A stretch of 64,000 bases of DNA from Rhododendron vialii (Eukaryota; Streptophyta; Magnoliopsida; Ericales; Ericaceae): the NCBI RefSeq assembly GCF_030253575.1, contig NC_080569.1, positions 26,796,501 to 26,860,500 of the forward strand, written 5' to 3'. A program made the position numbers and the translations under genes. Below, piece after piece: positions 12,767-35,284 of this stretch. Below the pieces are notes generated by a model, which saw nothing but the letters and a program-made list of their open reading frames with translations, was not told the DNA's origin and did not search any database. How positions within the stretch are numbered: the stretch's first letter is position 1; every line of letters starts with the position of its first letter.

Positions 12767-15700
12767 TCAAATTCCGGGATCAACGTATCGGCTGCAATCA
12801 ATACCCATCCCAGAAAATGCTTCCACAAGCTTAGGGAAGAGCTTAGAAAGCATGATCTTGAACCCAGTAGAACTCCCCCGTTGATTTTCTTGCTCCCCTT
12901 TTGTGTACCCAAAATCACAGCTAACTGAAGCTCCTTCCATATATGCCTTACAAGCCAACAGAATATTTTCCCAGCGACAGGAGAAGTGTTCCTGCACGAA
13001 TTCCTCAAAATGCTGCACAGAGAAAGGAAGAAACTTTTATTAACCGGGTACAGTGTTAGCAATGACATCTGCATTAGAAAAGGGTGTTTTTGACTAATTA
13101 AAGAGGCGTTTTCAGAATACTGTATTGTGTGCGTTTCTTTCGAAGGCATTATAAAACGGAATCCACCCATTAGAATTGTTTTCATTACAAAATAATGTTG
13201 GGTCATAACAAAAAATTGAAGCCATGACAAATTTACAAAAAACAATCATGTGCAATAATTCTTGAATATACAGAAGTGATAACACACCTAGAATAGGATC
13301 AGTGCTAAGTATTTGGTACACAAAATAAATCGACCCATCAAAAAGTTTGGTTACCAATAAAACGGCAGCTAGATTTTAAGATGCGCTTTATGAAAGTTCA
13401 GGCTTCAGAGGTCAAATAAGCAATAATCATTACTACAACAATAAAGCACACCGAGTACATTATTATATACCTTGGGCGATTTGCGTAGTAGGTATAGCAT
13501 GGACTTGCAATTGCCAATAAATGCATTTTCATTGTAGCTCACTGAGTTCTTCTCTCCCTCTACTCTTCCCATTTGATTATCATATCCAGCTTCATTATAG
13601 TAAGGTTTCTCATTAAGCACGAGGGCCTGAAGGGATAGGAGAACTTGGAGAATGGTGGAGCTCCCTGGATTCCATACTTCAGTTCCAGTGCCAGTCCAAG
13701 TATTGAGGAGACTAAGACAGACTTTTCCAGACTCGTACAAATTAGGGTTGATTCGGAGACCACCAGATTTGTAGTGCACCAACTGCGAATAGGTTTAATG
13801 CCCACAGAGACATTACATAAGACACGTAATGGCGGCATGCGAATGTGGATTATGTGTCGTTACATAAAATAGCAATGGACTAGTAACTTTGACTGTGGTA
13901 ACTAGAGTGAACCCTATATTACAGGACTTGAAAAGAAAACATTTGCTTACGCGATGTAACTCATATTAAGGACGGCGGTAAGCAGGATTGATATGGACAC
14001 TGGACTCGACACCGACACTCACACATTCGTTTTCCTAAACATGAAAGACACGACATATTGGAGACACGGTTAAAGAAAGATATTTGTGTACTCGTATTAT
14101 GTATGGGATGTTTGGATAAAAGTAAATACAAGCACAGAATAAGGCTCTAGTTATAATGAAATATCATAAATGCCTTTTTCATTCCATGCTGTTCAAAAAC
14201 AAAATGAATGTCATTCCGTCTTTCAATTTTTTTTTTTTTGATCTGATTATTCAATTTGTAATTACAGTACTGCAAGTCTGCAACAGTCTTCTATCAAAAG
14301 TGTATCATCAGTCACATGTGCTATTACAATCTATCAACCATCATCTATCACACACAAAAAAGAACACTTACCTAATCTTCAACTAAAGGCTACTACACGA
14401 GTTCCCAAGTGTGTAATAAGACACTTGATTTGAGTGTCAGTATACGACTCGTGTCTGACTTCGTGCAGGACATCTGACAGATATCCATGCTTCATACGTC
14501 CAAACTTCCAACGTTTATCCTAGCATCATGTTTGTAAGTGAGAATAACAACAGTAAACTAAATTACTTACAGGTGGTACATGAGGATAGTCAGGAGGAAG
14601 GAAAATGTCAAAGAAGAAAAGTCCATCATGGTATGGAGTTCCAGGTGCACCAATAATGGCTGCCCGCAACAAATCCATCCTTTCCTCATACACACGGAGA
14701 TAAATTGTTTCTGCCAAAATTACAAAATGCGATTATGTAAACAACAAGCCCACAAACAGCTATAAGAACAGACTCCACAGAAATTGCATAGTTCAATCTT
14801 CAAAAGTTTTTGTCATTCTTTCTTGATAATCCTTTTCAAATTTGTTGCTTAGAGAGCTGAAATTTCTTCCCTTTGTACTTTATAAACGCCTAAAACACAA
14901 TTATCCAGTTCATTTAATTTGATGGCAAACCCAATATACTTCCTTGACATCTCTTAATGGCCATGAGTAGTGTTAGGAGAATTCCATAAACCTCTAACCC
15001 ACAACACTTTTGTAAAAGCATATATATCCACCACAATCTGCACGAAGGAACTGTAAAAGATTCGCCAAAAAAAAAAAAAAAACTGTTAAAGATGAACATC
15101 AGTCACCTTTGACTGGATCTGGATCTCTCCCTACTGCAATTTCTATTGAATCTATCGATTATCCTTCCCAGATTATGATACTAATAGAATACAGAACACC
15201 TTAGTTTTAGACTTATGTATGGATCATTATCATCATATGTATAATGTTATGAACAATTGGGGTACAAACAGCTTTTTCTGCATTTTCATCTCTCAAACCA
15301 ACAACAATCAATTTTATTGCAACCAAAAGGGAAGGCAGGTTGGTGAAACCGCTAATGCATTTTAGTTAAATCCAGTTTTAGATTAAATGAGATATCTCAT
15401 CGCACTAGCCATACAAAATCAGTAAATGAGAGAATGAAACATACCGGGAAGATCTTTCTCCAGAATGCTCCATTCTTCCTGAATTTTTTTCAACCATCCT
15501 CTTTTGACCTATGAAGAATAAAATAGGGTAAAATGTCACAATTTGCAAAATATGCTTTAACAGGTACAATTCAACAATTTGTAAACATAGGTTCTGTTTA
15601 ACCTGAGGTAATGCTAATCCCTTCCCAGCACCTTCAACAAACTGGTGGTCCAAGCAACCAGTTACCATATCAAACTGCTTAAATGCTTCCTGACTCTCTT

Positions 15701-16873
15701 TGACTTGCTGCTCCAAATTTCTATCGCTAAACATCAGCAAGCCCTCATTGCACAAGTTGGAAGATTCTAGCACAGCTTCTTCCTCACTGTTACACACCAA
15801 GCCATCTCCTTCTTCCAAACTGAGGTGAGATCTACCTGACGATGATGTGGAACTGAGAGAACCAAATAGACTTCCCATAATGCTAGTGAAAATCCCAATA
15901 GCAGCTCGAGGAAGGGAAGTGGTACCGGAGACCAACAAGTTCTGAGAATGTGAAAGAAAAGTTATTGTATGGTAGGTTTGGTTAAGTTACCAATTGTCCC
16001 AAAAGCTTAAACTGTTGGGAAACAAGCCCAAAAATGTATATCAAGCTATTTAACACCCTCCCTCATGTACAACCCTATCTTGCATGTGAAGATGCAAATA
16101 TCCATACATACTGCGGAAAAATGCAAACGAGAGAAACACGATACAAACAAGAAACAAATGCAAACAAAGAGGCTTGAACCCAAGACCTCTCGCAACTTGA
16201 GCTTTGCTATCATGTTAAGTTACCAATTGTGAAATGGGCCCAAAAATGTATATCAAGCTATTCAACGGTTTATCAAAAATGATCCAACTATGAGCATGTA
16301 GCCCACCTCAATAGTCCCTTGATGCTCCACTCACTTTTAGAATATGATCAGAATGTTACATAATTTGTTCTTATTTTCGGTAAATTTCCAACAACGGAGT
16401 TCGGTAAATGTAGTTCAGTCCCACAAATAAAAACGGGGTGTATTTTCTATATATGGACTAATCTGTCAATAAAGCTGCATGTAATGTTTTTGGACAATTC
16501 ACCTATAGTGAAATATTAACAAATGCAATGGATTTGTTTCATCAAAGGAGAATTTTATAGCAATAAAGAGTAACATATGTAGTCACTAAAAAATCCTGCC
16601 ACTGCTCCAAGATTTCATAAACGCCAAACTATATAAAACGCTTTGACATTCTACCGCAAATTTTCCGTGTTGAATTGAAGTATCAATGTATTCCCCTGTT
16701 TATCAGGATTTAGATCCCAGAGCTTCTCAATATTCCTAAGAATTAACCACCCCAGAGAGACAGCTCAACATACGGAGTCTTTTCACCTCCAAACAATTCC
16801 TAAATTGTTAAGCCTTCAGTCTAGAGTGCAGAGACTATCGCGAGTGTGCAAATGGGTATGTTGTGTCCGCGTG

Positions 16874-16941
<68 letters not shown>

Positions 16942-19900
16942 GGCATTCACCTTCCCCTTAGGCAAAGATTCGTTATCATGCTCAGTCATATGTTCTGTTG
17001 TTCGCTCAACATTTTCCTCATGAGGCACAGGAATAGGAAATAAAGCTTCATACTTATCCATTCGAAAGATTTCATAAGGTGCAACCTGAAATTATATTGA
17101 AGTATTGAAAAAGCAATTAAAATTTCATTGAAGAAGAGGAAACAAAAGCAAACTGTTTCACCAATACATGAAGACACAACCCATAAAGGTGGATTACATA
17201 AGCAATATAATTTGCACATTAAGGCATGAAATAAAATGCACAAGATTCTAAAAAAAATTCACAATGCTGCAGAATATAAGCAGCTAGCGAATGCCCATAC
17301 CTGAAGGCATTTAATGAAAATGATTTCTATAAATTAGCTCAAGCATGTTGCATATTATTATCCCTACAAATCTAAAGCTACACAAACAGTTTTCTCACAT
17401 TCCTAAAACAACAACAACAGAACCCATATTGTCCCCAATCATTGGGGGTATGGGCGGGGGAGGATTGGAGACGGACCTAACCTTTGGCAATATGCACAAA
17501 GTGGCTGCTCTCAGAATACCACTGAAACAGTGGCCCCCCTATACCTGCTCTCACATTCCTAAAAGAGCCTGTTAAAAACGCAAAAAATGAACTCAACACA
17601 CCAATCATGATCCCCTAGATTTATCGTGATAAGAGTTTAAATGTGTAATAGTTACTTGTTCAAGGGTATTGCAGAAAAATAAGGAGAGAGATTTCAAACC
17701 TATAGAGAAGTTTTTCTTTTTTGCTGGAAATTTTGTAGAGAAAATAGTGATTAAGGATATTAGCGAAACAATGAGGAAAGTGACAAAGTTAGATTTGGTA
17801 GAGAAAACGGTAATTGGATTATTTCACGTTTGAACATTCTCTAATTGCATGGCTACAACCTTAACAGAAAAAAAAATGATCGAATGGCTGGAGAAGTAGT
17901 TCACATTTGTCATTTTAAAAGGTCCGCTCTATTTATTAGATAAATGGTCGATCAGAAAAGGGAAGTATGTTTTGATAAAAGCAAAACGTACTTTTAGCAT
18001 AGAATAATGTGGGATTGGAGAGAAAAGAAAAAATATATGTTTTTCTTCTTTAACAGAAAAGACAACATTCAAAAGGGGATACATTGCCTATGAAACTAAG
18101 AGAGAGGTAGATTTATTGAGGAAATATTCTTTGTCTCTATTAAAAAAGGAATTGATCAACTGGCTATAGCCTTAAAGTCAGAATATGATTGGCTGGCTGC
18201 AGAGATTGTTCTGCTTGTATGACAAGACATTTTGCAAAAAAACCACTCTGTTGTATTATATAGACGAATCTGGTGTTAACAGCAATAATTTTGGTTAAAT
18301 ACTTCAGGTTTCTTTCCTAGCACACCACCCAGCTTTATAAAGAATCATAACGGCTAAAACAGCTAACTACTCATTATTGTTTTGCCCTAAACAAGGACGC
18401 GGTTGTTGACTTATCAAAAAGGACTCAAATGTTTGTCCTTTTCAAATGGATAAACCCTCCACATGGATATCAATGACTGGTTAAGAATGTTCTGTAAACA
18501 ATAGAATAAAAGTTTTTGCAGGGCCAGTGCGCAAACGAATTGGGGATTATCTTAGTATCAATACCATGACTGATGATGTTCAGAGATTTGAAAAGGGGGG
18601 GAAAACCTTTCCACCATACTTACTATTCATCTCAAATCATCAGTCCAGTGGTCCATGGTTCATATCCACAAGCTCTAATCCTCTGTATGAAAAAACAGAA
18701 AGGCTCAATTATGCAACTTCACAGAGTTGAGCTAACAAACACCTACTAAGAGACCCCAAAGGCAGTTGGGTAAAAATAGTTTATCATGGGAACGAGAAAA
18801 AAAAGCAATTTTACCAATATATCACATTTTACATTTGAAAATTGGAATTACAAAGACCTCACTTAGGTATACCAAATCACGTGCTGTATCTCGTCTAGGC
18901 ATTCCGTTTTTACGAAGGCATTACGCATCTCTTAGATCCTCTTTGCAACAGAACACAAAATCACAAATCCCAACCCTAGCATAATAGTCAATTGAATCAA
19001 CACAACAAAAAATAAGAACCTACCTTCGTTGTATGACCATTTGCCCATTTCACCTCCACATTTCCCTCTTCAACGCCCATAACAATTCCAATACAGGATA
19101 AGGAACAATTGTTCGAGAAAACGGTTGGTTCATCTCCCCCAATCTGACCATCAATTTGATCAACTAACTTGTTCTTTTCCAATCGAAACACAACATCACC
19201 AAGATAATAGGAATAGTCTGGGTGCTCCATTAGTTCATATGCACTCACAGTTTCCTCCATTTCCTCTCCCCCCAATTCAATTGCTGGATTGACAACAGGA
19301 ATATTCCACTTCACTCCCACAGTTCGTTCGTTTGCATCGAAGCATCTCACAAAACCCCATCTTCGACCACTAGAAAATTCTGGATCATCAGATATACCCT
19401 TTTCCATCACAAACTGATCAGGCCAAAAATCATGAGCATCAACAGCTTTTATTGGAAATAAAGAATGTGAGTCTAATCCCACTGAACGGGTGCCATCCTG
19501 CCACAGAACATCAACTTTGGTCTTTATCTTCACAATGACAAAGATTTCCCCAAAGTTTGGGCTAGTCCTTCCCTGAAATATTTCTTCAGCCTGCTTTAAC
19601 CTGTTTGTGAGATCACAAGAAGACCCATCCAGATAAATTCTCTCCATATCACCTTGGCAATCAGCAGCCGGAAATATACACCAATCACCTAGCTGCCAAT
19701 TTGCATGAGAGAGAAATGACAACAAGTTCAGGTCTTTAGAATCCTGCAAACATGGCGGAGCAGGGCCCCTTTCACAACCAACCATAGCACAAGCAAGCCA
19801 ATCAACATATACCAAACCAGCTTCCAAAGAAAAAACAGTTCCTTCATCTCGTTTCTCCTTCCCTGTGCCGCATAACCACCTAGCCGATCTAGAAACAGTA

Positions 19901-20418
19901 GAGAGCTCGATTCGCACCCTCTGTCCTGGATAATAAGGATATTGCGAATCCTCTAGAAGGTCGGGTCGAAGAGGTAAGAGCTTTTCGGGACCCATTGTGG
20001 TGAACTCAGACTTTGTGCCATCATCAAACAAAATGGTGACACAGTCAACTATTTTGTCCACTTTTCCAAGCCATGGCCCCAGCACAACATAATCACCCAC
20101 AGAAATGGTACGGATCTTTTGAATTTTGCTCGAACTGACATCTTTTATTTTTTGGCCCTGGAGATCTTCCAAATCCACAAACATATCAACATTCACCACT
20201 CTGCCCACCTGTCCAGAAGGGTCTGTAGAGGGACAAACAACATCGCCATATGTGAATTCGGTCTCAAATGAGAGGAAATCATCAATTTTTCCAATGGTTT
20301 CCTCGAGGCTTGTCAGAATGTTACATGCTTGTCCACCATACAAAGTTTCAATTTCATCATCTTGCTCCATACTGCTGTTACTCACACTGGAACAGTCAGA
20401 CTCACTGAATAAATCCAT
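12767..20418 (-). CDS. PHO2: PHO2-type ubiquitin-conjugating enzyme E2 24 (UBE2O-like E2/E3)
   Basis: Coding exons, in transcript order: 20418-19024, 17085-16951, 15941-15603, 15508-15445, 14710-14571, 13782-13471 and 13012-12767 (TGA). All junctions are GT/AG and the phases agree, giving 876 residues (Arabidopsis PHO2 is about 907). The large N-terminal part (residues 1 to about 620) has the FTYGDVV / GDYVVLGPWLGKVD / GQRVRIELSTVSRSARWL blocks of plant UBC23/24 proteins. The UBC domain starts near residue 625 (VKRGWLKKIQEEW), continues through PYHDGLFFFDIFLPPDYP, and has its catalytic cysteine at about 713 in GKVCLSLLNTW. PHO2 acts on endomembranes and marks PHO1 and PHT1 phosphate transporters for degradation; miR399 represses it under phosphate starvation. 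The miR399-site array in the leader separates it from the paralogue UBC23. A 25-base leader segment, 20419-20443, precedes the ATG after a splice acceptor (attgcag). Confidence 0.93.
16877..16938 (+). repeat. GA dinucleotide microsatellite, about 31 units
   Basis: Uninterrupted (GA)n tract of about 62 bp inside PHO2 intron 2. On the PHO2 transcript it reads (CU)n and begins 12 nucleotides after the exon 2 splice donor (exon ends at 16951). Such a perfect tract is expected to vary in length between individuals. Confidence 0.95.
17390..17560. repeat. Possible SINE-type fragment in PHO2 intron
   Basis: The stretch acaacaacaaca followed by ccatattgtccccaatcattggggg resembles the common plant dispersed-repeat string (tcccaatcattggggtcggc). 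A second piece of the same string, inverted, is at about 20858-20890 (gccgaccccaagtgattggg). The boundaries cannot be set, and the class (SINE or other retroelement) is a guess. The rest of the 1.94-kb intron (17086-19023) shows nothing recognisable. Confidence 0.35.
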
Positions 20419-20684
20419 TATATTGTTGCCTATCGGTATGTGTCTGCAATTAAGGTAACAACATCAATCGACTACCAACTATATGCAGAACACTCTAAAA
20501 AGAGTAGAGGCATTGGTTCCTTAAAGAAGGCATTCAACTCGAAATATTTCATCACATGTGTCAGAGTAACAGTACAAGGATCAGACCTTTTGTGGGTTCA
20601 AGAGCTTTCCTTTCTTGTAAAAACTCAGTCCTTGTTCATTTTCTGTTTCACAATCTGCTTTTTGAAAACACTAACACTAATCTC

Positions 20685-20836
20685 GTTTGGATTTGTTTTT
20701 GACAAAACATGATCTTCGATTTCAAAACATATACTTGGGTGTTTTCGTAAAAGTAGGTTCCCAAATATTTTTATGAAAACACCCAAGTAAATGTTTTGTT
20801 CTCGAAGATCATGTTTTGTCAAAAACAAATCCAAAC
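20685..20836. mobile_element. Foldback (hairpin) MITE in the PHO2 leader intron
   Basis: Two arms of about 68 bp, 20685-20753 and 20769-20836, are near-perfect inverted copies (gtttggatttgtttttgac and gtcaaaaacaaatccaaac at the ends) separated by about 15 bp. It lies inside the proposed 938-nt leader intron (20444-21381) of PHO2, so it would be transcribed as a long hairpin. No clear target duplication was found, so the family is unassigned. Confidence 0.75.
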
Positions 20837-21381
20837 AAAAAGTACGTTCCCAAATATTTGCCGACCCCAAGTGATTGGGACGTAAGGCTCGGTTTGGTTT
20901 GGTTAGGTTCCCAAATATTTGGAGATGAGTTTTAATTCCATTAACCACGGAAGCTTTCTTAAAAATGTTCTGCTAAACTAATTTAGAAATGACCAATAAA
21001 AAAATCAGCGATTTCCTAGAAATATCTAAAGTGCCAAAATATTAACTTGGACGTAGACGTAGTACCTGGATACAGGTAGAGTCAAACATGTTGGTAAAAG
21101 AGACAAGGATGCATGTACATGTAGATATCTAAAGAGACAAGGATGTAGATACCTGGATACAGGTAGAGTCAAACATGTTGGCATAAGCAGCATTCAAAAT
21201 TTCAGTGCGATAGATACTATGCATAATAGTATGAGACATCATCAAACTCTACCATATTAAGCTTCATTTAAACTTTAACTTTGAGCTACGAATGGTCAAT
21301 GTTTTGTAATATTTCTATTTTATGACAGAAACCAAATAAAGAACTGCTGGAAAGCAAAATCTTGAGCATACCAAATGTTAC

Positions 21382-22500
21382 CTTGAGATGAGGGTATCAC
21401 AATAAGAATCTGCAAGTTGGATACCAAACGGTGAACCGGTATCCACCTTAAATCTTCAGAAGTTAATATATACTTTTTGATCAATCTGATCTTCCGATGC
21501 AGAGATCTAGATAGTATCTCCAAAAAGTTGGAGATATGCCAAAGGAGATTTGCCCAAATGGAGCTACAGGTTGCCAAAGGAGATTTGCCCAAATAGAGCT
21601 ACAGGTTGTCTACAGAAGACTCCCCGAATTGCCAAAGGAGATTTGCCCAAATAGAGCTACAGGGTGCCCACGGAAGACTCCCCAAATTGCCAAAGGAGAT
21701 TTGCCCAAATATAGCTGCAGGGTGTCCACGGAAGACTCCCCAAATTGCCAAAGGAGATTTGCCCAAATAGAGCTGCAGGGTGTCCACGGAAGACTCCCCA
21801 AATTGCCAAAGGAGATTTGCCCAAATAGAGCTGCAGGGTGTCCACGGAAGACTCCCCAAATTGCCAAAGGAGATTTGCCCAAATAGAGCTGCAGGATGTC
21901 CACAGAAGACTCCCTGAATTGCCAAAGGAGATTGCCCAAAAAATGGACTGCAGTTCCCACTAGAAAGGAACTGCAAAAGGAGATTTTTGTGACAGCAGAA
22001 TTCTAGTTCTTGACAAGTTATGACTGCCAGATGAAATTTTCCAGACACGCTGCAGTGACAATCCAAAATTCCCTGACAAGGTCTTCTCAATAGCCGAATA
22101 GGAGACTTATGTAAGCCGATTAGTGAAAATCTTCCAACACCAGCTAAATACACCTCCAGTATATCTGTGGAAACAGCACTGCCCAAGAAGAGAAAACTCG
22201 TCAGTTTTGCCAAAGGAGATTTGCCCAAAAGAGCTGGATGAACAAGTATTGATGCAGATTTTGCTAAATTGACCGAATTTCAGAGGCCACTTCCAGCACC
22301 AGATAAATATACCCCTAGTATAACGTGGAAACAGCACTGCCCAACAAGAGAAAACCCTCAGTTTTGCCAAAGGAGATTTTCCCTGAATGAAGCCAATGTT
22401 TCACTCAGCTTTGTGTATTGCCGAAGGACATAGATTTGCGTGACGTAAAAAAACGCCAACAATCAAGTTCAAGCCATCCAAGAGAAACACCAAACTAAAC
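21382..22500 (-). promoter_or_regulatory. PHO2 5' leader exon carrying miR399 target sites (approximate 5' limit)
   Basis: On the minus strand this block ends at 21382 with a good donor (catctcaag|gtaac), which pairs with the acceptor just before the PHO2 ATG. It contains at least ten sites complementary to miR399. The plus strand reads tgccaaaggagatttgccc, identical to miR399 positions 1-19, so the PHO2 transcript carries the complement. Exact sites start at 21537, 21572, 21630, 21688, 21746, 21804, 21862 and 22208. The site at 21920 has lost one T, and 22365 differs by one base (g to t). Decayed copies are near 21972 and 22422. From 21572 to 21920 the sites recur every 58 bp. Known PHO2 leaders carry several such sites (five in Arabidopsis). 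The 5' end of this exon is not determined. Confidence 0.92.
21572..21977 (-). repeat. 58-bp tandem repeat, seven units, each with one miR399 site
   Basis: Seven consecutive units of exactly 58 bp, each consisting of the miR399-complementary segment plus a spacer (aatagagctgcagggtgtcc followed by acggaagactcccc). The central units are nearly identical, showing recent unit-by-unit expansion. The last unit carries a one-base deletion in the miRNA site. A separate 157-bp duplication gives the sites at 22208 and 22365, both preceded by a ggaaacagcactgccca segment. Confidence 0.95.
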
Positions 22501-29629: not shown

Positions 29630-29804
29630 TTGTATTTCCGTTTTGTTCAACCAAACATTGTAGTTGTACTATTTGGAACTTGTTTGTAACGTTTGTTTGT
29701 TTAGAACTTGTAACGTACTATTGTATTTCCCGGTGGTTTTCATAACCTAATGTTTAAGGTCGTACTTTTACAATTGCTGCACACTTTTAAATACATTTAC
29801 AGCA

Positions 29805-30864
29805 ATGACAACACCCGAAGTGGAAGTAGTGGACGTGGAAGGGCCATCAAAGCAAACACGTAGGAGTTGGAGGAAAAATGAGGAGGATGCACTAATGAAG
29901 TGCATGCTGAATGAAGAGGGGGACAAGTGGAAGGCCGATAATGGCTTCAAAACGGGTTACTTCACCCACTTGGAGAAGGAGTTACAAAAAGTGCTCCCGG
30001 GGTGCACCCTTAAGGCAAATCCCCACATTGACTCCAAGGTGAAGCATTGGAAATCCGTATGGGCTAAACTTGTTGACATTAATAGCCTAAGTGGTTTCGG
30101 GTGGGATGCTGTGAACAAGCGTATCGACGTGGAACAATCCGTATGGGACCCGTATGAAAAGGTAACTCCCAATGTTGAATTCTAATGCTTTAATTGAATA
30201 TTAAGGCATGAGAATTCGTAATAAGAGTGCAAATGTTTGTGTAGGCCCATTCGAAAAGGTCAAAGGCTTGTACGGGAAGTCTTTCCCGTATTTTGAGGAT
30301 TGGCAAACACTTTTTGGCAAAGATAGGGCTACGGGGGCGGCCGCAGAAGATTTTGAGGAAATGGCGCGCCCGGAAGTGGAGCCACGCAACTCCAATGACT
30401 TCTATGAGTGTCTATTCGATAACTATGATCCACATCTCCCTAACACTCCCACAACTCCCGTAACTCCCACAACTCTCACGGCTCATGCCTCACTCCCCAC
30501 GTCCACTCCTCGTGGCTCAATGCCGGCAGCCAATGCCGGAGTTCCAAAGGGGAGGAAGAGGACAAGAATGGGTGAAGCGGATTTGTCCATCCATGCGAGC
30601 ATGGACAATTTCTTCAAATCAAGCAGTAGCTATATGGAGAAGATGGCCAACTCCTTTGGCTATGACAAAGACCTATCCGCTCGACGCACGATGGTGAAAG
30701 ATGAGTTGTCAAAGCTTGACATCACATTGACGGAGAAGTTCAAGCTCAGTGCAATCATCGTGCAAGCGGAAGAGAGGGTGGACGACTTCTATGGCACTAA
30801 GCCGGAGGAGAGGCAAGCATTTGTGGAGGCCATCCTTGCCGGTGAGGTGTACGGGCCCATATAG
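29805..30864 (+). CDS. Myb/SANT-like DNA-binding protein of the PIF/Harbinger element
   Basis: Two exons, 29805-30161 (donor aag|gtaact) and 30226-30864, joined in phase: 332 codons including the stop. The Myb/SANT-like domain is at the N-terminus (RRSWRKNEEDALMKCML to VKHWKSVWAKLVDI and GFGWD), followed by the family's PYFEDWQTLFGKDRATG segment. The Pro/Thr-rich linker holds a basic GRKRTRMGE cluster. PIF/Harbinger elements encode such a partner, which binds the subterminal DNA and brings the transposase into the nucleus. The acceptor (ataag|agt) is chosen because it keeps frame; another nearby AG is possible. No stop or frameshift is visible. Confidence 0.82.
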
Positions 30865-33778: not shown

Positions 33779-34262
33779 CTAGTTCTCCTCGGAAACAAAG
33801 CAATAGGCCCATCGATTAAAATGGGGAAATTGCCTGTCCCGTAAATGTCTCAGATGTCGGTGATCCTACATATAAAAGTTAGGAAAACATTAACAAAACT
33901 TACAGACCAATACTTTATACAAAATTGAAAAAACATTGAAAAGAACTTACTTGGACAAATTCATTCCAAATTTCATTTGCCACCACTAGTTTGTTTTCAT
34001 TTGGATTCCACCCGAACCCAGGACGCCTAAGCATAGCGTCTAGTATACGATAATCACTCTTCCATTTCTTGATCATTCCTTCAATATGAATTTCGTTTAT
34101 ACCTGCTTGAGGGAAAGAAACTCGCATCTCATTTTTAAGAACTCCCAAGTAGGAAGGGCGAAACCCTCCGTTGTCGGTTCGCCAAACCCCCTGATCTACA
34201 AGGCTCGTAAGGTTAGTTAACAATGCATCCTCCTCCTCCTCGCTCCAAGCCCGGCGTGCCAT
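33779..34262 (-). CDS. Second Myb/SANT-like protein in the PIF element, minus strand
   Basis: Exons 34262-33951 (donor caa|gtaagt) and 33865-33779 (acceptor tatgtag, stop TAG) join in phase to give 132 residues. The first exon is a complete Myb/SANT-like domain: MARRAWSEEEEDALLTNLTS, VWRTDNGGFRP, IKKWKSDYRILDAML and GFGWNPNENKLVVANEIW. The second adds LRDRQFPHFNRWAYCF, equivalent to the PFPxFDDW segment that follows this domain in plant relatives. It is much shorter than usual and lacks the linker and C-terminal part. It is transcribed against the transposase. It may belong to another element or be a second, diverged partner gene. Confidence 0.7.
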
Positions 34263-35284
34263 TGAAATGATGAAGAAAATAAATTTACGAAATTAGGAAA
34301 TGAATATGAGATGTGAGATGAGATATGGAAAATGAGTGCTATTTATAGAAACTTTGATATAAATAATTTGTTGAACCTACTCCTCACATGAATTCAACTA
34401 ACACCCACATGTTTCCAACCACCATCTACTCCCCATTCATTTTTATAAATTTTGGTTTTTTAAAAAATGCATAAAATTTCGGTTGTATTACACATTTTTA
34501 AAAAAAGGAAAAATTTCATACTTTAAACATTATTAACTATTTTTATTCAACATTTTCAACAAATAACCAGTTCAAACATTTTAAAGAAAACTTATTTTAT
34601 TTTATCCAAATAATCGGTACGTATTTTAACATTTTAAAATTTCATCAAGTTTAAAAATATTTCTCATAAATATAATAAAGCACTTAAAAACGAAATGTAA
34701 ATATTTTATTTATTTTATATAATTCTTATTATATTAGTTAGGCACATTTTCACCAAAAAAATATGTTGGCCACATGCAAATTCACCTAACAAAATTGTTG
34801 GACACATGTTCAACTACCAAACAATGTATTTTTGAAACAAAAAAAATAAACAGAATTTTTATTTGCAAAAAATGATTTTTATCAAATTAAAACTGACTTT
34901 TTCATTTTATAATATTATTAAATTATTACATTTGTTAGTAAAAATATATATTACGGATTAAAGTTTGAAAGATTAATTATATTTTGTAATTATACATATA
35001 ACGTAATACATAATTAAGTTTGAGACTGCACAAGGGTAAAAAAGTCATTTGACAACTTTTTACATTATCCACCCTTCCTAATACCTCCTATTTATCCTAC
35101 GTCCAAACCACGTACTATTTTATCCCCCCTTTCTAATACTCCATCCAAACCAATCACTATTTAATCCTCCCTCCATAAATATCACATCAATGTAGGCCAT
35201 CCCTTATTAACCAATACCCCCTACTATCCAATCCCCCCTTCTTATATAATACCTCCAAACCTAATACCGCATCCAATCGAGCCC
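34263..35284. other. AT-rich right end of the PIF element
   Basis: Highly AT-rich noncoding DNA with a run of ccctacc/atcccccctt words just inside the right end, mirrored by gggggatt words near the left end (25740-25880). These are likely subterminal motifs of the PIF/Harbinger element. Confidence 0.5.

Follow-up and report, generated by a model that had tools for sequence, protein, structure and literature searches.

Tandemly expanded miR399 target sites in the predicted leader of one of two PHO2 copies of Rhododendron vialii

The predicted leader of a PHO2 gene of Rhododendron vialii carries about ten target sites for miR399, seven of them in a tandem array of near-identical 58-bp units, and the expansion most probably took place in this gene copy, after its separation from a paralog with four sites. 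PHO2 is a ubiquitin-conjugating enzyme that restrains phosphate uptake. When phosphate is limiting, miR399 rises and the PHO2 mRNA is cut at sites in its leader (PMC2268993; this and the other papers are cited from excerpts). The number of such sites in one of two paralogs here, as compared with the four to six reported for other plants, makes the pair a natural experiment within one genome on whether site number tunes microRNA control.

The miR399 sites and the PHO2 leader

The window analysed is a stretch of 64,000 nucleotides, C13:26796501-26860500, with PHO2/UBC24 on its minus strand (Table 1). The plus strand contains eight exact copies of TGCCAAAGGAGATTTGCCC, starting at 21537, 21572, 21630, 21688, 21746, 21804, 21862 and 22208, and the miR399 target is the complement on the minus strand. 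Two further sites, one at 21920 with a 1-nt deletion (one T missing) and one at 22365 with a single mismatch, bring the total upstream of the PHO2 start to ten, from 22383 down to 21537, all sense to the PHO2 mRNA. This pattern count in the window agrees with an earlier sequence-only reading, which had listed eight exact, one deleted and one mismatched site and had named no strand. By chance, with all four bases equally frequent, about 5e-7 copies of the exact 19-mer would be expected on the two strands of the window. Throughout the 532.6-Mb genome (13 contigs), the 19-mer occurs 13 times, namely eight times at the window PHO2, three times at a second PHO2 copy and twice in MIR399 hairpins, and a reversed control pattern occurs zero times. 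The same reading had also spoken of decayed copies; candidates are indeed seen at 21972 and 22025, but they are weak, with five mismatches each, a level equalled at four other places in the window.

Table 1. Features of the PHO2 locus, in window coordinates
Feature	Position	Strand	Remarks
miR399 site farthest from AUG	22365..22383	-	mismatch at miRNA position 16; 1008 nt from AUG once spliced (predicted)
miR399 site outside array	22208..22226	-	exact 19/19; surroundings align to the paralog's third site (L001 1689)
Possible decayed site	21972..21990	-	5 mismatches; weak
58-bp tandem array	21571..21940	-	6.4 copies; six exact sites (21572, 21630, 21688, 21746, 21804, 21862) and one with 1-nt deletion (21920)
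miR399 site nearest AUG	21537..21555	-	exact 19/19; 180 nt to AUG once spliced (predicted)
Small hairpin	21515..21536	-	directly 3' of the last (AUG-nearest) miR399 site; paralog counterpart L001 1478-1499
PHO2 leader exon (predicted)	21382..22431	-	3' end at CAAG|GTAA donor 21382/21381; 22431 is merely the nearest ATG upstream of the sites, 5' end not fixed
Predicted leader intron	20444..21381	-	938 bp; TTGCAG acceptor at 20443; contains many ATGs
Start-codon exon	19024..20443	-	ATG at 20418; UBE2O-type SH3 domains
Rest of PHO2 coding region	12770..17085	-	UBC domain within 14529-14732; last exon within 12770-13036

The tandem repeat has a period of 58 with 95% matches, its near-identical units running head to tail over approximately 400 bp. 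As had been proposed, seven sites are regularly spaced, their starts from 21572 to 21920 falling at exact 58-bp intervals, while the AUG-nearest pair (21537/21572) is 35 bp apart, as if one unit had shed 23 bp. The central units differ from one another at 0-1 of the 58 positions and the edge units at up to 6; units 21746 and 21804 are identical, and the other units have distinguishing variants. Among the six full units, eight columns vary, all of them within the 39 non-site columns and none inside the 19-nt site (P 0.032); none falls inside the first 24 columns either (P 0.0095), a span that was picked after inspection of the data. The test is marginal, and this distribution no more than suggests that the 19-nt site is constrained in the array. 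Similarity showed no significant decay with unit separation (8.9% of the 720 orders reach the observed correlation), and the predicted accessibility of the array sites, 0.38-0.49 against an exon mean of 0.41, indicated no special openness.

The identification of the gene as PHO2, likewise made in the earlier reading, is supported by UBE2O-type SH3 domains (Pfam PF23046, PF23043 and PF23044), a C-terminal PF00179 UQ_con domain, and a reading frame that stays open through the first four coding exons, with splice sites picked by eye. The last exon, identified via its match on C2, terminates in a stop. Upstream of the coding region, the PHO2 strand is without ATG from 22431 to 21369, that is, for 1062 nt across all of the sites, which is the longest of the 2359 ATG-to-ATG gaps on both strands of the window (runner-up, 553). 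Each of the five other trinucleotides made of one A, one T and one G is seen 9 to 17 times in this stretch, and 0 of 2000 dinucleotide shuffles were free of ATG (mean 18.3; the shuffled stretch included one edge ATG). With a single unit left in place of the array, still 0 of 2000 shuffles were ATG-free (mean 14.0), and the repeat is therefore not the cause of the ATG absence. With the predicted splicing, which joins 21382 to 20443, the leader is free of ATG from the farthest site down to the start codon; farther upstream, ATGs are present from 22431 onward. The PHO2 copy on C2 has 698 ATG-free nt over its sites, the next longest stretches in the 3.2 kb examined reaching 191 (same strand) and 329 (opposite strand), and it has donor and acceptor in corresponding places, its predicted spliced leader likewise being without ATG. 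Selection against start codons is the natural reading of such a leader. The ATG-free stretch, the splice signals and the paralog layout agree with a position of the sites in the PHO2 leader, as had been suggested before; the leader would be spliced as predicted. In bean, barley and wheat, PHO2 is described, in the excerpts at hand, as having its miR399 sites in the untranslated second exon.

Two other identities of the array were considered. That of a part of a dispersed transposon is rejected, as the unit matched the two PHO2 loci only in a genome search in which the best candidates were scored and common words were skipped. A reading as tandem MIR399 precursors on the plus strand is not favoured, because the ATG-free stretch belongs to the PHO2 strand; in addition, four folded plus-strand stretches of 2-3 units gave no full-length miR399-pairing hairpin.

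Several smaller features accompany the locus. Both PHO2 copies have the hairpin beside the AUG-nearest site. In this comparison of two sequences only, a single base pair differs, both of its partners having changed (A-U to G-C); the GGAGAU arm of the hairpin could also pair with the AUCUCC of a miR399 site. The predicted leader intron holds a MITE-like inverted repeat at 20685-20836, whose 71-nt arms (20685-20755 and 20766-20836) are 92% complementary, and no counterpart of it aligned in the 485-bp intron of the paralog. Elsewhere in the window, two ORFs with Myb/SANT-like DNA-binding domains lie at 29751-30185 (plus strand) and 33915-34292 (minus strand), which we take to be possible remains of Harbinger-type transposons.

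A four-site paralog and the growth of the array

The first PHO2 coding exon, searched against the genome, matched at three loci, namely the present one on C13, a copy on C2 (68% identity) and a more distant locus on C5 (43-44%), the last without an exact miR399 site. All five of the PHO2 coding pieces searched against C2 matched there, and the C2 copy has four sites, three exact and one mismatched. The two nearest its AUG are 57 bp apart and delimit one 57-bp unit resembling the 58-bp repeat. Over the site-spacer-site stretch, this unit is 84-86% identical to the array units, a figure raised by the included sites; with the sites excluded, 27-30 of the 40-41 spacer columns are identical, more than in any of 500 shuffles for every one of the six units. 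Three flanking parts likewise match their counterparts in the C2 leader: the sequence that follows the last site on its 3' side, that preceding the deleted site (21920) on its 5' side, and the region around 22208. Judged from these alignments, the ancestral layout was probably a site-spacer-site stretch plus two outer sites, of which one spacer-plus-site was multiplied in the C13 copy.

The dS between the C13 and C2 copies, 0.72-0.74 over 253 codons, fits the Rhododendron genome duplication, for which a peak at about 0.65, dated to about 78 Mya, is given in the excerpt of PMC7572368. Of the neighbouring genes, DUF2921 and PPR were tested against 14.3 kb of C2 including the gene itself; neither matched, and the genome-duplication origin of the C2 copy therefore rests on dS. 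Because the C2 copy has four sites and a single 57-bp unit, growth of the array is placed after the duplication and in the C13 copy, most probably, with one outgroup copy compared; as to the direction of change, units may instead, though less probably, have been lost from the C2 paralog. The tandem growth envisaged in the sequence-only reading is in this way supported, most probably by duplication after the PHO2 copies split. That reading had further called the growth recent. With the rate implied by PMC7572368, as excerpted, and on the assumption of no gene conversion, which makes the ages rough, the units date to about 2 Myr at the centre, about 12 Myr for the mean of the non-site columns and about 21 Myr at the largest. 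The word thus holds in part, for the almost identical central units more than for the edge units, with their up to 6 differences.

miR399 supply and the possible effect of added sites

Apart from PHO2, 18 places in the genome have 0-2 mismatches to TGCCAAAGGAGANTTGCCC, and 17 rows were folded; places with three mismatches were left out, the control pattern also being frequent at that level. Nine of the 17 folded rows are MIR399-like hairpins and represent eight loci, since one hairpin was read on both strands: one locus on C3, one on C7, and six on C13 at 28.606-28.629 Mb, about 1.8 Mb from PHO2. A further three rows (L031, L035 and L037) satisfied the loose pairing criterion, but with two mismatches each they were assigned to neither class, and five rows gave no MIR399-like hairpin. 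The mature miR399 of L012 and of L013a pairs perfectly over nt 1-19 with eight of the ten window sites, and the isoform L013b is mismatched at nt 1. At position 13, by inspection, U matching the sites is present in four of the eight MIR399 loci, and the rest have G or A, which would mismatch.

The C13 cluster (C13:28606549-28628776; L012, L013, L024, L025, L028, L029 and L030) comprises six MIR399 hairpin loci in about 22 kb, with one pair 187 bp apart, of which one member starts its mature sequence with C rather than U, and a hairpin symmetric enough to read as MIR399 on both strands. On C10, L023 (C10:23041620) agrees, by eye, with the C3 locus L021 in the mature miR399 and in the roughly 45 nt preceding it, and has a different sequence at the position of the 5' arm; no hairpin formed with up to 350 nt upstream, and it looks like a broken MIR399 copy. 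Another C3 locus, L038 (C3:10905042), bears an IPS1-like bulged decoy motif, GGGCAACTTCGATCCTTTGGCA, with a central insertion. The longest ATG-started frame on its strand in the 3-kb locus has 86 codons, with the motif outside, and a P1BS-like motif is located 408 nt upstream of the decoy motif.

The reading that we favour, and hold with fair though by no means full confidence, is that of an ordinary miR399-controlled PHO2 leader in which the stretch from one site to the next was tandemly duplicated, to yield about ten sites, presumably through unequal exchange or slippage between the identical site sequences. The leader would be spliced as predicted, and under phosphate shortage miR399-loaded AGO1 would cut the PHO2 mRNA at any of the sites. 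Every site would add to the chance of cutting, so that the C13 copy would be silenced at a lower miR399 level than its paralog. If the sites act additively and independently of each other, half repression is reached at a miR399 level that falls as 1/N. With assumed weights of eight full sites plus two at 0.2 for the C13 copy, versus three full sites plus one at 0.5 for the C2 copy, the former is 2.4-fold more sensitive than the paralog in this model, and greater miR399 sensitivity of the C13 copy is plausible on that basis. The same model would shift the threshold of the response and leave its shape unchanged, so that the response would be no more graded. Variation of copy number within the species, which the sequence-only reading raised along with a graded response, is likewise unsupported by the single haplotype analysed.

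How many of the added sites would be effective bears on the main rival to this explanation, a serious one that we consider possible though doubtful. According to it, the expansion was neutral: slippage built the array in a leader whose miR399 sites were saturating beforehand, and the added ones have no measurable effect. Four of five PHO2 sites are cut in Arabidopsis, as cited in PMC6296076, two of five in barley (PMC3878733) and two of four in N. benthamiana (PMC6296076), in the excerpts of these papers. The partial use of sites in the latter two plants makes saturation possible, and extra sites may therefore add little; other plants have four to six sites, as far as the excerpts go, and identical sites would be natural substrates for slippage. 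On the other hand, the 19-nt site is invariant in the six full units while 8 of 39 other columns vary, and the leader has stayed free of ATG through the expansion, both of which speak weakly against neutrality.

A further idea, which we put forward as speculative and rather unlikely, is that such a minisatellite of microRNA sites acts as an evolvable gain control. Selection would keep the sites identical, identity would ease recombination, and each gain or loss of 58 bp would shift the phosphate level at which PHO2 is silenced; alleles would then differ in set-point, and the four-site paralog would keep the ancestral one. More generally, identical sites kept by selection would be good substrates for unequal exchange and could provide a general route for the multiplication of target sites. 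The habitat of Rhododendron is phosphate-poor acid soils.

The remaining explanations are far less probable. The array, together with 5' cleavage fragments that retain several sites, could hold miR399-AGO1 as a sponge and so shield the four-site paralog or other targets. A single RNA would indeed offer many identical sites, and two of the four paralog sites share the 21 nt of the array sites, a third sharing 19 nt; however, cutting, by which AGO1 is released, is favoured where the central positions pair perfectly, and a separate bulged decoy motif is present on C3. We give this role very little credence. We think it just as improbable that the array works as an amplifier, in which multiple cuts would trigger secondary siRNAs from the array, some matching miR399, that would extend to the remaining units and also to the paralog. 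Such a process would be in line with the siRNAs that adjoin the PHO2 sites in ski2 mutants of Arabidopsis (PMC4678812) and with the small RNAs of antisense orientation at the PHO2 sites of barley (PMC3878733), but these siRNAs are low in abundance and the Arabidopsis PHO2 ones are reported as RDR6-independent in the excerpt of PMC4678812; furthermore, 58 mod 21 equals 16, and cuts at successive units would therefore be out of a common phase. Finally, an assembly artefact, or an array outside the transcript, is scarcely credible, given the variants that distinguish the units (although 21746 equals 21804), the HiFi reads from which the haplotype A assembly, very probably the source of this sequence, was built (PMC10338486, excerpt) and which easily span the far shorter array, and, as to the transcript, the ATG-free leader with its matching paralog layout.

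Comparison with known miR399-controlled RNAs

The target mimics IPS1 and At4 are bulged and uncleavable. They resemble the array in having a motif complementary to miR399, and one candidate of this kind is found on C3; unlike in the mimics, the pairing of nt 1-19 is free of bulges at eight of the present sites.

Among PHO2 genes, that of Arabidopsis (UBC24) has five 5' UTR sites, about 200-400 nt before the start codon, in the excerpt of PMC2268993, in agreement with the five sites quoted in the sequence-only reading. The gene, the location in the leader and the similar distance of the AUG-nearest site are alike in both plants, whereas here about ten sites extend over 180-1008 nt, eight of them identical and seven in a tandem array. 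Barley HvPHO2, with five (PMC3878733) or six sites (PMC4919326), also has multiple sites in its leader, in exon 2, but they number at most six, several of them mismatched, in the excerpted texts. The closest parallel in spacing is found in common bean, in which the PvPHO2 sites are listed at 1084, 1175, 1345, 1399 and 1453 (PMC3645745, excerpt). The last three are evenly spaced at 54 nt, and even spacing is therefore not unique to R. vialii, although three evenly spaced sites out of five in bean compare with seven here.

Our search of the open-access literature for PHO2 site counts, and for Rhododendron with PHO2 and miR399, gave no paper on such an array among the matches listed. The counts in the excerpts are five for Arabidopsis, rice, common bean and poplar (as cited), five likewise for all three copies in wheat and all three in Medicago, five or six for barley and four for N. 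benthamiana, so that six is the highest published count that we found, compared with about ten here. Measured against these excerpts, evenly spaced miR399 sites are already known, and what is new in R. vialii is the scale of the array and its restriction to one of two PHO2 paralogs.
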